Shown piece by piece: positions 2,454-44,665 of a stretch of DNA of 44,665 nt. Each line of letters begins with the position of its first letter. Position 1 is the first letter of the stretch. Below the pieces are notes generated by a model, which saw only the letters and a program-made list of their open reading frames with translations, was not told the origin of the DNA and searched no databases. Where the stretch lies: assembly GCA_021831565.1 (NCBI GenBank), contig JAKBMM010000021.1, positions 1-44,665 on the forward strand, in the 5' to 3' direction. A program made the translations under genes and the position numbers. The stretch is from Planctomycetota bacterium. Lineage in GTDB: Bacteria > Planctomycetota > Phycisphaerae > WQYP01.

Positions 2454-3725
2454 ATGCCCATGGAAATCACGATGCCCAAACTTTCCGACACCATGACCGA
2501 TGGCACACTGGTGCACTGGCTCAAAAAGGAAAAAGATAAGGTTCAACCCGGCGACATCATCGCTGAGGTTGAAACCGACAAGGCTACCCAGGAACTGGAA
2601 GCATTTGAACCGGGAACCATAGCTAAAATCGTGGTGCGGGAAGGAACCAAGGTTCCGGTGGGGGGGGTGATCGTGGTGCTGGCCGGGCCGGATGAAGACG
2701 CCGAAGCGGTGGCCAAGGCTTACGTCGTCAAACCGGTTCCCGTGGAGGCGGTCAAAGATTCCTCCGCCACCGCCGCTCCCGCGCCCATCCCGGCTCCCGC
2801 GCCCCCGCCGGTGGCGCCCGCGCCGGTTCCGGCGCCATCATCCGCCGGTTCCACCGGCGGCGGCCAGCGCCGGCGGGTCTCGCCGCTGGCCCGGAAAATC
2901 GCCGAGGAAAAGGGTGTCGACCTCGCTGCGGTTGCGGGGTCGGGGCCGGATGGGCGCATCATCAAGCGCGACGTTCTGGCGGCCGCTGAAACTGTTCCCC
3001 CGGCCGGCGCCGCGCCAAGGCCGATTCCGGGAACATCCCGGCTGGAGGCGAAAACGATGGCGCTTTCCAACGTGCGCCAGACGATAGCCCGCCGCCTTCT
3101 GGAAGCCAAGCAGACGATTCCGCATTTTTATGTGTCGATTGATGTGGTGATGGAGGCGCTGCTGGACCTGCGTAAGTCCGCCAACGAACAACTCGCTCCC
3201 GCCAAACTTAGCGTTACCGACTTCATCGCCCGGGCCGTGGCCGTGGCGCTCACCCAGACGCCGGCGGTCAACGCCAGCTTTAGTTCCACCGCCATCGTTC
3301 GCCACGGAACGGTTCATCTTGGCATCGCGGTCGCCGTCGACGACGGCCTGGTGGTGCCGGTGATCCGGGACGCCCAGACCAAAGACCTCCGGCAAATTTC
3401 CGCCGAGATCCGGCAGCTCGCCGAGCTGGCCCGGACGCACAAGCTCAAGGCCAATCAATTGACCGGCGGTACGTTCACCATCAGCAACCTGGGTATGTAT
3501 GGCGTGCGCGATTTCATGGCGATTATCAACCCGCCGGAGTCGGCGATTCTGGCCGTGGGCGCAACCGAGGCAAGGCCGATCGTCAGAGGCGCCCAGGTGG
3601 TTCCCGCACAGGTGATGACGCTTTCGCTCTCGGCCGATCACCGCGTGGTGGATGGCGCGACCGCGTCCGAATTCCTGAGCAAACTTAAGGCCATTCTGGA
3701 AAATCCGCTGGCGATGCTGGTCTGA
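2454..3725 (+). CDS. pdhC: dihydrolipoyllysine acyltransferase, E2 of a 2-oxoacid dehydrogenase (pyruvate type)
   Basis: This 423-residue E2 subunit would pass acyl groups from E1 to coenzyme A on a swinging lipoyl arm. The N-terminal lipoyl domain carries the modified lysine at about residue 43 in EVETDKATQELE. A linker rich in Ala and Pro follows (about residues 100-130). Then comes a peripheral-subunit-binding domain (RVSPLARKIAEEKGVDL...GPDGRI), and the catalytic domain ends with DHRVVDG, where H396 and D400 fit the HxxxD active site. The start at 2454 is preferred because GAGG (2443-2446) precedes it and the lipoyl domain begins right after it; an upstream in-frame start at 2424 would add ten unlikely residues. 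E1 and E3 genes are not adjacent, so the pyruvate rather than 2-oxoglutarate assignment rests on sequence impression only. Confidence 0.93.
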   Translation: MPMEITMPKLSDTMTDGTLVHWLKKEKDKVQPGDIIAEVETDKATQELEAFEPGTIAKIVVREGTKVPVGGVIVVLAGPDEDAEAVAKAYVVKPVPVEAVKDSSATAAPAPIPAPAPPPVAPAPVPAPSSAGSTGGGQRRRVSPLARKIAEEKGVDLAAVAGSGPDGRIIKRDVLAAAETVPPAGAAPRPIPGTSRLEAKTMALSNVRQTIARRLLEAKQTIPHFYVSIDVVMEALLDLRKSANEQLAPAKLSVTDFIARAVAVALTQTPAVNASFSSTAIVRHGTVHLGIAVAVDDGLVVPVIRDAQTKDLRQISAEIRQLAELARTHKLKANQLTGGTFTISNLGMYGVRDFMAIINPPESAILAVGATEARPIVRGAQVVPAQVMTLSLSADHRVVDGATASEFLSKLKAILENPLAMLV

Positions 3726-3798
3726 CGGAGTCTTCCCGCCCCGCGCCGCGGAAGTTTATTTTTCCCGCCGGGGAGGCTTGGCGGCGTTTGCCCGCTTG

Positions 3799-3816
3799 CC
3801 CGGCGGGCCCGCCGGG
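3799..3816. other. perfect 18-bp GC palindrome downstream of the E2 gene
   Basis: CCCGGCGGGCCCGCCGGG is a perfect inverted repeat between the E2 stop (3725) and the LolA-like start (3845). There is no T-run after it, so it is not a textbook intrinsic terminator. It may still slow transcription or mark the operon boundary. Confidence 0.4.
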
Positions 3817-3844
3817 ATGAAAGGCAAGTGATGCGGGGGTAATC

Positions 3845-4576
3845 ATGCAACGTTCGTTGCCAGGTTCTCTGGCGGCCCTGGCATCCTTGTTATGGTTAAC
3901 GCCGGCGCCGGCGGCGCGGGCGACGGCCAAGCCGGCGGATCAGATGCTGGCCCGCAACATTGCGGCCATGCGCGGGGTCCGTGCGATTCGCGTGAATTTC
4001 CGGTGTGAAAAAAAACTCCAAGTATTGAAAAGACCGTTTGTCAGCGGGGGTGTCATCACCATAGCCCGGCCCAACCAGGTGCGATTCCAAACCATTAGCC
4101 CCTATCTTTCCTGCTATATTCTCACCGGCCGAAAGGTTTTTTCGCGCAACCAGACCGACCGGCATTGGCATACGGCGCGATTGGATCGGCAAGAATCCCT
4201 GGCCATGATCATGCGGCAATTCGCGCTCTGGTCGCTCGGCAAACAACGAAACATTGGAAAAGATTATTCCGTGACGATGACCCGCACCGCCTTGCCGCCG
4301 CCCCCGCGCCTCTCCGGCGCGCCACCCGGCGAACCATCCCGTCGAGCTTTGCCGGCGCCATCCCGGGAGGTGGAACTATTCACTCTTACGCCGCGCAATT
4401 CCCTTCTGGCCAAGGCGATCCGGACGGTGCAACTGGGTTTTCCGCCCCAATCGCCGCACTTGATATTCATCCGGATTGCTTCACGGCATGACAATCAAAG
4501 CTTGTACTGGTTCGACCATTTGCGAATGAATCCCCATCTACCCGCGAGCTGTTTTAAGCCGGTTGGACCGCCATGA
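3845..4576 (+). CDS. LolA-like outer-membrane lipoprotein carrier family protein
   Basis: This 243-residue exported protein has an N-terminal signal peptide (hydrophobic about residues 7-25, ending near PAARATA). The rest fits the LolA-like fold: an alternating beta pattern with VRAIRVNFRCEKKL, then GGVITIARPNQVRF, which corresponds to the 'G.l.i.rP...R.' signature of LolA relatives, then a C-terminal segment pairing LTPRNS with IRTVQLGF. Such proteins carry lipid or lipoprotein cargo across the periplasm. Its stop overlaps the start of the next gene in an ATGA (4573-4576), so it is translationally coupled to an MMPL exporter. That pairing is typical of aryl-polyene-type and related lipid-export loci, and argues for cargo other than ordinary lipoproteins. 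A proline-rich insert is seen around residues 150-175. Confidence 0.68.
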   Translation: MQRSLPGSLAALASLLWLTPAPAARATAKPADQMLARNIAAMRGVRAIRVNFRCEKKLQVLKRPFVSGGVITIARPNQVRFQTISPYLSCYILTGRKVFSRNQTDRHWHTARLDRQESLAMIMRQFALWSLGKQRNIGKDYSVTMTRTALPPPPRLSGAPPGEPSRRALPAPSREVELFTLTPRNSLLAKAIRTVQLGFPPQSPHLIFIRIASRHDNQSLYWFDHLRMNPHLPASCFKPVGPP

Positions 4577-41336: not shown

Positions 41337-41445
41337 CATGCCGGCGGCGAAAAATGGATGATGACGAGGCTGGCCGCTCCGCCCGAATGGTTCGAACCCA
41401 GAGCGCGGCGGGGGTGCTTGGTTGCCGCAAGGCAAGGAGATATGG

Positions 41446-42273
41446 ATGCTTGATTCCCAACAGGTTGCGACATTCCAGCGCGATGGTTTTATCAATGCCG
41501 GGCCGGTGATTACGCCGGAGGAAGCGGATGCCCTGGCCGCGGAAACGCTGCGGATTCTGGCGGACCGCGACAAGGCGAATGTGCCGCAGCCGGTGGCTAT
41601 TGGTAATCTGGGCAAAGAGGATGCACCGGTGTGGCAGATCGTGAATATCTGGGAAGCTTCCGAAGCGTTCCGCAAGCTGGTTTTTAATCTGCGGATTACC
41701 GAGGCAATCGCGCAGGTGCTCGAAGGCGACGCCATACGCCTCTGGCATGACCAGATACAATACAAACCGGTGGCGACGGGCGGGGTGAACATGTGGCACC
41801 AGGACAGTCCTTACTGGCCCAGCCTGACGCCGAAAGACCAGCAGGCCACCTGCTGGATCGCCCTGGACGACGCCGCGGAGGATAATGGCTGCATGTCCAT
41901 GGTTCCCGGTTCGCACCGCTGGGGCAACAACATTGATTTTCTGCATCAAATCAAATCCTTCGACGCCCTGCCGGCCGAATTCCAGGGCCGGCCCGTGCGC
42001 GCGCGGCTGTGCCCGGTAAAAAAAGGACACATGCATATACACCATTCTCTGACCTGGCACGGTTCACATGCCAACCGCAGCGGCCGGCCGCGGCGGGCCA
42101 TTGCTCTGCACTTTATGAACGATCGCACGGTATTCGTGCAAGGCGGCAACCATATCATGGAACGGTTCATCCAGGTTCCCCATGGCGCCAATATCGAAGG
42201 GGATCATTTTCCGCTGGTATGGCAACGACGCGGCAATTTTTTCGGGAATGCCGGCGTGGAACCGGCAACATAA
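41446..42273 (+). CDS. phytanoyl-CoA dioxygenase-family (PhyH) non-haem iron oxygenase
   Basis: This 275-residue protein opens MLDSQQVATFQRDGFINAG as PhyH proteins do. The iron site shows HxD in NMWHQDSPYW and the distal His in HHSLTWHGSHAN; DNGCMSMVPGSHRWG lies between, and a basic residue in NRSGRPRRAIALHFM should bind 2-oxoglutarate. It differs clearly from the homologue at 11087. AAGGAG six bases before the ATG at 41446 sets the start. The last dozen residues and the stop codon lie inside a diverged R2 repeat, so the repeat may have altered the C-terminus. The substrate is unknown. Confidence 0.87.
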   Translation: MLDSQQVATFQRDGFINAGPVITPEEADALAAETLRILADRDKANVPQPVAIGNLGKEDAPVWQIVNIWEASEAFRKLVFNLRITEAIAQVLEGDAIRLWHDQIQYKPVATGGVNMWHQDSPYWPSLTPKDQQATCWIALDDAAEDNGCMSMVPGSHRWGNNIDFLHQIKSFDALPAEFQGRPVRARLCPVKKGHMHIHHSLTWHGSHANRSGRPRRAIALHFMNDRTVFVQGGNHIMERFIQVPHGANIEGDHFPLVWQRRGNFFGNAGVEPAT

Positions 42274-42380
42274 ATGCCGCCGCCAGGTCCGCGCCGGACG
42301 CCGCGCCGCTTCCCCGGCTGCTCCCGGCCTACCGGCGGACTGGCCGGAAAAATTGCCACTTACCCGCCGGCGATGAACCG
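42239..42380 (-). repeat. diverged R2 repeat, inverted copy
   Basis: Read on the minus strand, this region aligns with R2 copies A and B: TTTTCGGGA, then AACC.GGCAA, then CGCCGCGCCGCTT, CGGCTGCTCC and CCGGAAAAATTGCCAC in matching order, with an insertion of about 20 bp. It begins within the C-terminal codons of the PhyH-like gene and reaches the promoter of the corrinoid gene. GCAACATAAATG inside it (42266-42277) also recurs at 31031-31042. Similarity is by eye and patchy. Confidence 0.6.
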
Positions 42381-42390
42381 CCGGGGGTGC

Positions 42391-42421
42391 TTGACAATGA
42401 CGGCCGCATTCCGGTTAATAT
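42391..42421 (+). promoter_or_regulatory. sigma-70-like promoter for the corrinoid protein gene
   Basis: A perfect TTGACA (42391-42396) is followed 18-19 bp later by TTAATAT (42415-42421), of which TAATAT is the best minus-10. It lies immediately after the R2-like repeat and about 43 bp before the chosen ATG. Confidence 0.55.
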
Positions 42422-42463
42422 GATCCGAAAATGTGAAAAGTTCGCTTTTTGGGGATCCCATAT

Positions 42464-43099
42464 ATGGACGCCGCCATGTTAAACCAGCTCACCGCGGCCA
42501 TTAAATCAGGCAACCGCAAACAGGCCACGGCCCTGACCAGCCAGGCCATCGCGGACGAAGTCAACGCTCAAGTGATTCTCGATGCGATGGTGGCGGCGAT
42601 GGATGATGTCGGCCGCCGCTTCAAGAACAATGAGATATTTGTCCCGGAGATGCTCATCGCCGCGCGGGCGATGAAAGAATCCATGGCGTTGTTGGAGCCG
42701 GTGCTGGTCAAGGCCGGCATTCGCCCCCACCACACCGCCGTGGTGGGCACGGTCCAGGGAGACCTGCACGATATCGGCAAGAATCTTGTGGCCATGATGT
42801 GGAAAGGCGCAAACTTTAACGTGATCGATCTTGGCGCCAACGTCCCGCCGGAAAAATTTGTTGCGGCCGCCGGTGAGCACCACGCTCATTTGATCGGTCT
42901 GTCCGCTCTGCTGACGACCACCATGCCGGCGATGAAGACCACGCTGGACGCGGTCCGCGCCGCCGGCTTGGCGGGAGTGAAGGTGATTATCGGAGGGGCG
43001 CCGGTTACGCAGGCCTTCGCCGATGAGATCGGCGCCGACGCCTACGCCGCCGAGGCCGCCAGCGCCGTGGAAGTGGCCCGGAAACTGGTGGCGGCGTGA
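42464..43099 (+). CDS. methyltransferase-cognate corrinoid (B12-binding) protein
   Basis: This 211-residue protein carries a cobalamin as methyl carrier. An N-terminal helical cap (about residues 1-85, with NEIFVPEMLIAARAM) is followed by a Rossmann B12 domain. GDLHDIGKNLV holds the DxHxxG motif whose His binds cobalt from below. SALLTTTMPAM and VIIGGAPVTQAFADEIGADAYA complete the nucleotide-tail pocket. This is the MtbC/MttC/methionine-synthase-like type. A substrate-specific methyltransferase and an activator normally stand beside such a gene; none is here, and the neighbours are a PhyH-like oxygenase and a peptidase. The start at 42464 is chosen because GGGGA lies about nine bases upstream. 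Confidence 0.9.
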   Translation: MDAAMLNQLTAAIKSGNRKQATALTSQAIADEVNAQVILDAMVAAMDDVGRRFKNNEIFVPEMLIAARAMKESMALLEPVLVKAGIRPHHTAVVGTVQGDLHDIGKNLVAMMWKGANFNVIDLGANVPPEKFVAAAGEHHAHLIGLSALLTTTMPAMKTTLDAVRAAGLAGVKVIIGGAPVTQAFADEIGADAYAAEAASAVEVARKLVAA

Positions 43100-43116
43100 G
43101 GATGATGGATACTTTT

Positions 43117-43144
43117 TTGACAAATTCTTAAAAAAGCGTATAAT
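43117..43144 (+). promoter_or_regulatory. consensus sigma-70 promoter for the glutamic peptidase
   Basis: A perfect TTGACA (43117-43122), a 16-bp spacer and a perfect TATAAT (43139-43144) form the strongest promoter in the window. Transcription from about 43151 would give a leader of about 117 bases. It is far more AT-rich than the surroundings. Confidence 0.75.
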
Positions 43145-43267
43145 TAATATAGATAACTTGGCCGCCGCTCGTAGCGACTGGAATTTTTCCGGGCGCATAA
43201 GGCGGAAATTCCGGCCGATCTTAATGTTGCAGCGCCGCGGTTTGCATTTTTTCGAGGGAGAGTTTCT

Positions 43268-44125
43268 ATGCGTACCACCACACTACTGTTATCTTGCGGA
43301 CTGTTGGCTATGGGAGGCGCTGCAAGCGGAGCGGGCATTGCTGACGCGACGCCAATCGTTGATACTACCTCGAATTGGGCTGGTTACGTCGATACGTTAC
43401 CCTCGGATTCCGGTTACACCATCACATCTGTTTCCGCCGAGTGGGCTATGCCGACGATGCAGGCTCCGGCGGGAAGCGCCGCCTCTTATTTAGCGATCTG
43501 GGTGGGGTTTGACGGCTGGAACAACAACACGGTTGAGCAGATCGGCATAGAAACCGTCATCTACGGCAATCCAATCTATTATCCAGTGTATGAAATGTAT
43601 CCAGAATTCCCGCATAACATTTCTCTCGGCACGATAAAACCGGGTGACATTATTTCCGCATCGGCAAGTTACAGCATTTTTTCGAAAGAGTTCACGATGT
43701 CCATCAGCGATTTGACCGCCGGGCCTCAGGCTACTTTCTCCACTGTCATACCTGGAAACGGGCTGCAGGCAAGGTCATCTATGGAATGGATTGTGGAAGA
43801 CCCGGCGCCCCCGCTCGCCAATTTTGGCACGGTATCGTTTTTTAACGCATCCGGGAGTGTGCAGAACACAAGCGGGAAAACATTCAGTGGGCCGATTGAT
43901 TCAGCTTCCAATATCGGAGGAACTACCTACCAAGTTTGGATGAAACAAAACAACGTCTTTCGCGCTGGCGTGCGCGGATTGTCCGATTACAAAAGCGGGT
44001 CAACCGCCACCAGCGCGTTTACTGTTGATTACCTTCCCGTCCCGGAGCCTGCGTCGCTGGCCCTGCTGGCGTTGGGCGGCATGGCTATTCCGCTGATCCG
44101 GCGGCGCCGGGTCATGCGCTGGTAA
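43268..44125 (+). CDS. G1-family glutamic peptidase (eqolisin) with PEP-CTERM anchor
   Basis: This 285-residue secreted protein has a signal peptide (hydrophobic about residues 5-20), a peptidase G1 domain and a C-terminal PEP-CTERM sorting signal. SNWAGYV begins the domain, WVGFDGWNNNTVEQIGIE carries the catalytic Gln (Q91) and SMEWIVEDP the catalytic Glu (E173). VPEPASLALLALGG, a hydrophobic stretch and RRRR form the PEP-CTERM tail. Eqolisins are acid-active peptidases, best known from fungi and some acidophilic bacteria. A GAGGGAGAG ribosome site precedes the ATG. Three sampled 60-base lines gave 23, 32 and 29 G/C, well below neighbouring genes, which suggests horizontal transfer. No exosortase is encoded in the window. 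Confidence 0.88.
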   Translation: MRTTTLLLSCGLLAMGGAASGAGIADATPIVDTTSNWAGYVDTLPSDSGYTITSVSAEWAMPTMQAPAGSAASYLAIWVGFDGWNNNTVEQIGIETVIYGNPIYYPVYEMYPEFPHNISLGTIKPGDIISASASYSIFSKEFTMSISDLTAGPQATFSTVIPGNGLQARSSMEWIVEDPAPPLANFGTVSFFNASGSVQNTSGKTFSGPIDSASNIGGTTYQVWMKQNNVFRAGVRGLSDYKSGSTATSAFTVDYLPVPEPASLALLALGGMAIPLIRRRRVMRW

Positions 44126-44239
44126 GCACGCCGGGCGGCCGGCCACCCCAGCCGTACGACTTCGTCTCCGCCGCCTGGTAGTCCATGCCTTGGGTCGCAT
44201 CGGACCCAGCCTGCCGCACCTGGTCAACATCTTGGAGTA

Positions 44240-44357
44240 TTTGTAACCGTTCACGGCGGCGCGGAAAACGGCCGCGGGATTGCGATCCTCGCGGCTGCCC
44301 CATGGTCGCCCTCCCCCGCAGCCGTGGATGGAAATCCACGGCCGTCCGTAACCGCAA
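44240..44357 (+). repeat. R1 interspersed repeat, right copy
   Basis: This is the inverted counterpart of 45-162: 118 bp, three mismatches. In the direction of the peptidase gene it begins TTTGTAACCGTTCACGG 114 bp after that stop codon, and ends GTCCGTAACCGCAA. It has the same orientation relative to its upstream gene as the left copy has to the FkbM gene. Confidence 0.85.
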
Positions 44358-44568
44358 ACCATCATGCCTCTTAAACCAACCACCGCTCTATTACCATCCA
44401 CGACCGTGAAAAGCCGCGCGGAGGTGGACGCAAAACGGCCGCGGGATTCCACCACTCGGCTGCGTGACTGGGGCGGCGCGGTGATTGGCGGTCCCGACAC
44501 ACCGGAAAAACCCATGCCCGCCGGGACGTGCGCCAAAAACATCCGGTGGGGCCTGTGACAGTTTCTGC

Positions 44569-44607
44569 AAAAGTGGCGTAATCAGCAAAAAAACGCCACT
44601 TTTTGCT
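44569..44607 (+). terminator. hairpin with T-run and an overlapping alternative hairpin
   Basis: AAAAGTGGCGT (44569-44579) pairs with ACGCCACTTTT (44593-44603) and is followed by TGCTTTG. AGCAAAAA in the loop (from 44584) can pair instead with TTTTTGCT (44600-44607), giving a second, exclusive stem. The arrangement may be an intrinsic terminator for unseen or upstream transcription. Confidence 0.45.
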
Positions 44608-44665
44608 TTGCAGAGCACTTTTTTTGTGATTTTTATGCCCCATAAACTTCAGATTCCACATTATT

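Follow-up and report, generated by a model that had tools for sequence, protein, structure and literature searches.

A PEP-CTERM-tagged glutamic (G1) peptidase gene of a planctomycete and the near-consensus sigma-70 promoters found at PEP-CTERM genes of its genome

Introduction

Does a gene lying at the end of a planctomycete contig encode a genuine acid peptidase displayed at the cell surface, and is it a recent newcomer to its genome? A preliminary description of the sequence had seen in it a glutamic (G1) peptidase, or eqolisin, anchored by a PEP-CTERM signal, driven by a perfect sigma-70 promoter, rare in bacteria, recently acquired and adapted to low pH. These claims are reassessed here in the window, i.e. 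the whole stretch of 44,665 nucleotides that was analysed, which is an entire contig (C74) of a draft genome of 2.81 Mb in 86 contigs (G000). The 16S fragment of this genome carries GGTTAAGGCATGCAAGTC, with 2 mismatches to the Planctomycetes PLA46 target, which is suggestive, not conclusive.

Family assignment, catalytic residues and fold

The gene (43268..44125, + strand) encodes a protein of 285 aa and is preceded, 5 nt 5' of its ATG, by the likely ribosome-binding site GAGGGAGAG (43254..43262, + strand). The protein matches the Pfam family Peptidase_A4 (PF01828) with 103 bits for a curated cut-off of 22.3 (E 1.9e-29), its G1 domain spanning residues 35-202 (43370..43873, + strand), and a sequence search of solved structures retrieves the aspergilloglutamic (AGP) and scytalidoglutamic (SGP) peptidases. 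It is the sole eqolisin found in the genome. A probable Sec signal peptide, recognised by eye as a hydrophobic N-terminus and disordered in the AlphaFold model, covers about residues 1-23 (43268..43336, + strand). It is separated from the domain by about 10 residues, i.e. by almost no pro-region, prepro-segments of eqolisins being of about 55 aa (PMC6154417).

The catalytic dyad had been placed at Q91 and E173. When SGP numbering is mapped using the anchors G8, G41, D43, G44, I51, W67, E69 and L105 (from PMC6154417), Q91 (codon 43538..43540, + strand) does correspond to the catalytic Gln, SGP Q53. E173 (codon 43784-43786, + strand) corresponds to SGP E132, a conserved, non-catalytic residue, and is thus ruled out as the catalytic Glu, which is E177 (codon 43796..43798, + strand; SGP E136, AGP E219). 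The dyad is therefore intact, with one of its partners displaced by four residues from the position first proposed. Q91, E173 and E177 are all invariant among 21 aligned sequences (the window protein and 20 relatives), and the invariance of Q91 and E177 leads us to expect an active enzyme. Other hallmarks are found as well, the residues G39, G80, G83, G93, D82 and E109 being those of SGP G8, G41, G44, G55, D43 and E69.

One hallmark is absent: the position of the substrate-binding Trp67 of SGP is occupied by V107 (codon 43586..43588, + strand), where all the relatives compared have W or F. In SGP, Trp67 holds the catalytic Gln in position and makes a stacking contact with the substrate (PMC6154417); it is a frequent hallmark of eqolisins, not a defining residue, and F also occurs. 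Owing to V107, the activity of the window peptidase could differ, and its substrate specificity may depart from that of usual eqolisins. In the eqolisins of two related genomes (G020 and G002; L070 and L075), E69 is replaced by A and P72 is missing; these proteins are possibly altered or non-peptidase homologues.

The AlphaFold model, based on 21 aligned proteins, has a mean pLDDT of 84.7, most 10-residue blocks of the domain reaching 93-97. In the PDB, this predicted model best matches the eqolisins 2ifw, 2ifr, 1s2b, 1y43 and 3trs; neprosin, another glutamic peptidase, comes next, and the closest structure is that of SGP (TM 0.81). Below the peptidases, the fold search lists lectins, the eqolisin fold being related to that of concanavalin-like lectins. 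The protein could accordingly be imagined as a catalytically impaired surface protein, lectin-like or structural, in which the beta-sandwich has been kept rather than proteolysis; the replacement of Trp67 by Val and the little homology of PEP-CTERM proteins to known proteins (PMC1569441) would fit with this. We nevertheless consider it unlikely, as the dyad, the hallmark glycines and the equivalents of D43 and E69 are all intact, and as the fold search gives peptidases much better scores than lectins (3e-13 versus about 8e-4). The window protein is a real, if rather ordinary, addition to a known, fungus-type enzyme family, and its sorting tag is likewise of a known type.

The PEP-CTERM tag, the exosortase and a proposed mechanism

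The sorting signal, VPEPASLALLALGGMAIPLIRRRR, covers residues 257-281 (44036..44110, + strand) and is recognised above cut-off by Pfam PF07589 (23.3-27.9 bits). It consists of VPEP, a hydrophobic helix (263-271 in the predicted model) and RRRR. The genome contains 38 PEP-CTERM sites over cut-off and one exosortase (C78:25192-25965; E 1.9e-51, over the TIGR02602 cut-off), for which none of the typed exosortase subfamily models reaches its own cut-off. The exosortase, which sits in an exopolysaccharide export locus, is flanked on one side by an EpsE-like export protein. On the other side lie an unassigned protein, at the position of an EpsI-type partner, then a TPR protein and a Wzc-like tyrosine autokinase. 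As an exosortase is encoded by 28 of 29 related genomes, it does not set eqolisin carriers apart.

The coexistence of an exosortase and about 38 PEP-CTERM genes makes surface sorting plausible, and with it the delivery of the window eqolisin to the surface or the exopolysaccharide. Related eqolisins of the family have autotransporter domains or no anchor, and one could thus see in the C-terminal hydrophobic stretch a mere membrane anchor, foreign to any exosortase. This is very improbable, given that the tag is matched over cut-off and that the genome encodes both an exosortase and many PEP-CTERM paralogues. The earlier reading of a G1 peptidase with a PEP-CTERM tag is thus upheld by the family search, the fold, the motif, the exosortase and the many PEP-CTERM genes.

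We therefore hold it as highly probable that the gene encodes a secreted MEROPS G1 glutamic endopeptidase that the PEP-CTERM/exosortase system would direct to the surface of the cell or to its exopolysaccharide layer. Its strong near-consensus promoter would probably give a monocistronic transcript. The product would be exported by Sec, and the single exosortase, on recognising VPEP, the transmembrane helix and the Arg cluster, would release or attach the protein outside the inner membrane. At this location, water would be activated by the Gln91/Glu177 dyad and peptides cleaved, with an optimum that most likely lies at acidic pH, the enzyme serving either extracellular protein digestion for nutrition or the processing of matrix proteins.

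Acid-favouring proteolysis is probable by analogy with PepG1, a bacterial enzyme of the same family that has its optimum at pH 3-4 and is insensitive to pepstatin (PMC3009609). As for the adaptation to low pH that had been proposed, it would be an extrapolation from the enzymology of the family. Sedolisins, another acid-active secreted peptidase family, would have been a separate hint of life in acid surroundings, but none was found in 29 related genomes.

Near-consensus sigma-70 promoters at PEP-CTERM genes

The promoter upstream of the gene is, as initially described, a perfect TTGACA-16-TATAAT (43117..43144, + strand; -35 at 43117-43122, -10 at 43139-43144), with a 12/12 match to the consensus. 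It is the only such site in 42000-44665 and one of only 5 in the 2.81-Mb genome, the reversed-pattern control giving 0. The leader from the -10 box to the start codon (43145..43267, + strand) is about 120 nt long; a hairpin is possible, but it folds no better than shuffled sequences (z-score 0.30) and has zero matches in Rfam, and a structured leader RNA was rejected.

When the pattern is relaxed to TTGACA-N15-19-TATWAT, 7 sites are found genome-wide (0 for the reversed control), and 5 of these are located on the coding strand, 50-236 nt upstream of a PEP-CTERM gene (C1:19221, C7:2383, C38:3866, C73:16292 and C74:43117, at L033, L135, L136, L035 and L036, respectively), a non-random placement. 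The P value of this association is about 7e-13 under random positions and about 2e-8 if every such promoter precedes some gene (2400 genes assumed); with a looser -10 box, the promoter is present at 10/38 PEP-CTERM genes versus 1/138 control upstream regions (Fisher 7e-7, or 8e-6 with controls restricted to upstream gaps of at least 100 nt), all these P values being somewhat optimistic since the motif was noticed before being tested. Gene starts were picked heuristically, controls came from a 0.2-Mb sample and the window, and the PEP-CTERM gene set includes some tandem paralogues. A search for enriched 7-mers at PEP-CTERM genes, made without any prior motif, likewise ranks CTTGACA first. In 0.45 Mb of the congener, where 9 PEP-CTERM genes are clear, the sole promoter of this kind again lies before a PEP-CTERM gene, apparently an orthologue.

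Sites for sigma-54 have been described at proteobacterial PEP-CTERM genes by Haft et al. (PMC1569441). The presence of such sites at the PEP-CTERM genes of G000 was considered and discarded, as they are not enriched upstream of them. The association between promoter and PEP-CTERM genes is the most interesting of our results and the part most worth following, as it provides a simple and testable hypothesis for the control of exosortase substrates outside Proteobacteria.

Distribution of eqolisins and diversity of their C-termini

In the window's family, 12-13 of 28 genomes contain PF01828, as does one genome from another family of the class. Among 392 genomes drawn across the phylum, it is found in a single one, G000 itself. 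The rarity attributed to bacterial eqolisins is thus confirmed at the scale of the phylum but fails locally, as about half of the window's own family carries them. The tree places the window protein as sister to the eqolisins of G012 and G026, from its own family (support 100/99; identity about 49-54%), the deep branches being poorly supported. These two draft genomes, assigned to different genera, share 2181 bases with 99.9% identity on contigs of less than 5 kb (L064 and L046), which probably reflects a misbinned contig in one of them, or else a very recent transfer.

The C-termini of these relatives, assigned by Pfam for five of them and judged by eye from similar ends for the remainder, are diverse. 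PEP-CTERM is found in ten sister proteins, and an autotransporter beta-domain ends the eqolisins of G019, G022, G005, G016 and G009, fusions of about 980 to 3700 aa (L058, L059, L060, L061 and L062). In G028, from another family, one eqolisin (L063) combines three InlB/Flg_new-type repeats with a type I dockerin, and a second one has no C-terminal module. The nearest homologues, in G012 and G026, have a degenerate AEP tag that Pfam does not recognise. When these labels are placed on the tree, at least 6 changes are needed versus a minimum of 2, which makes it likely that C-terminal anchors have been swapped among eqolisins. One bacterial family with many eqolisins and three C-terminal surface or attachment modules provides ready material for a comparison of the modes of display of acid peptidases. 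A search of the open literature yielded no G1 peptidases anchored by PEP-CTERM or autotransporter modules, which is no proof of absence.

A broader picture, to which we give about even chances, is that near-consensus sigma-70 promoters, otherwise almost absent from the genome, mark its PEP-CTERM genes, the eqolisin gene included, as a surface-protein regulon replacing the sigma-54/PrsR control of Proteobacteria, and that acid peptidases have been repeatedly re-anchored in this lineage by PEP-CTERM, autotransporter and dockerin swaps.

Origin of the gene

The recent acquisition of the gene had been deduced from its GC content and its promoter. The GC content of the gene is about 54% (54.2-54.4%) and its GC3 60.5%, which is indeed lower than in the 24 other ORFs of the window taken as genes (GC 60.7 +/- 2.7%, GC3 72.1 +/- 3.2%), but falls within the spread of the 38 PEP-CTERM genes of the genome (56.9 +/- 2.6%), so that the difference largely follows the class of the gene. 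As the promoter class is likewise enriched before PEP-CTERM genes, neither feature was retained as evidence of transfer, and recent acquisition is not supported on these grounds.

The neighbourhood of the gene was then considered. Upstream, 41422-43099 contains a phytanoyl-CoA-dioxygenase-like gene followed by a gene for a methyltransferase-type corrinoid protein, possibly forming a demethylation unit, whose adjacency is conserved in the only genome of the same genus (G001). Downstream, there is no clear gene before the contig end (44126-44665), a stretch in which an AACGGCCGCGGGATT element occurs twice in similar form. In G001, the corrinoid neighbour is 97% identical and the eqolisin is absent at the site: similarity stops directly past the stop codon of the corrinoid gene, and a different low-GC gene is found there. 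Opposite the window from 43100 onwards, the eqolisin's slot is occupied by an AT-rich gene of unknown function (L127, ~3370-4400, reverse strand). The eqolisin being missing at this site in the congener, the site is variable and the gene accessory; absence in one congener is compatible with gain or loss.

This variable site and a GC content under that of the neighbouring genes would fit a foreign gene recently brought in by horizontal transfer. We regard this origin as improbable, however, since the GC content is typical of the PEP-CTERM genes of the genome, the promoter class and the tag type are common to about 38 native genes, and inspection of the ORF list by eye revealed no transposase or integrase next to the gene. 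Furthermore, no close donor was found: a scan of contigs gave a 39% identical relative at best, and the nearest homologue, with an identity of only about 49%, belongs to the same family. The eqolisin gene is accessory, in a lineage that commonly carries eqolisins, and is not demonstrably a recent import.

Comparison with known systems

The window protein resembles SGP/SCP-B and aspergilloglutamic peptidase (MEROPS G1) in its predicted fold (TMt 0.81 to both 2ifw and 1y43_B), and shares with them the Gln/Glu dyad and the hallmark residues. It differs from them by an identity of about 31%, the lack of a Cys at the SGP Cys141 position, a very short pro-region, the PEP-CTERM tag and the Val at Trp67. 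Like PepG1 of Alicyclobacillus sp. DSM 15716, the first of the few bacterial eqolisins to have been characterised, it is a bacterial, presumably secreted G1 peptidase with the dyad; in the available part of the description of PepG1, surface anchoring is not mentioned (PMC3009609).

As for sorting, the PEP motif, transmembrane helix and Arg cluster at the C-terminus, the location of the exosortase in an exopolysaccharide locus and the long upstream regions of the genes are all reminiscent of the PEP-CTERM/exosortase (EpsH) system (PMC1569441). In contrast to the proteobacterial PEP-CTERM genes with their sigma-54 sites, those of G000 are enriched for near-consensus sigma-70 promoters. Finally, the autotransporter-fused eqolisins of the five sister genomes have the same G1 domain (32-36% identical) and are presumably surface-bound as well, but an outer-membrane beta-barrel and a passenger region stand where the window protein has its PEP-CTERM signal.
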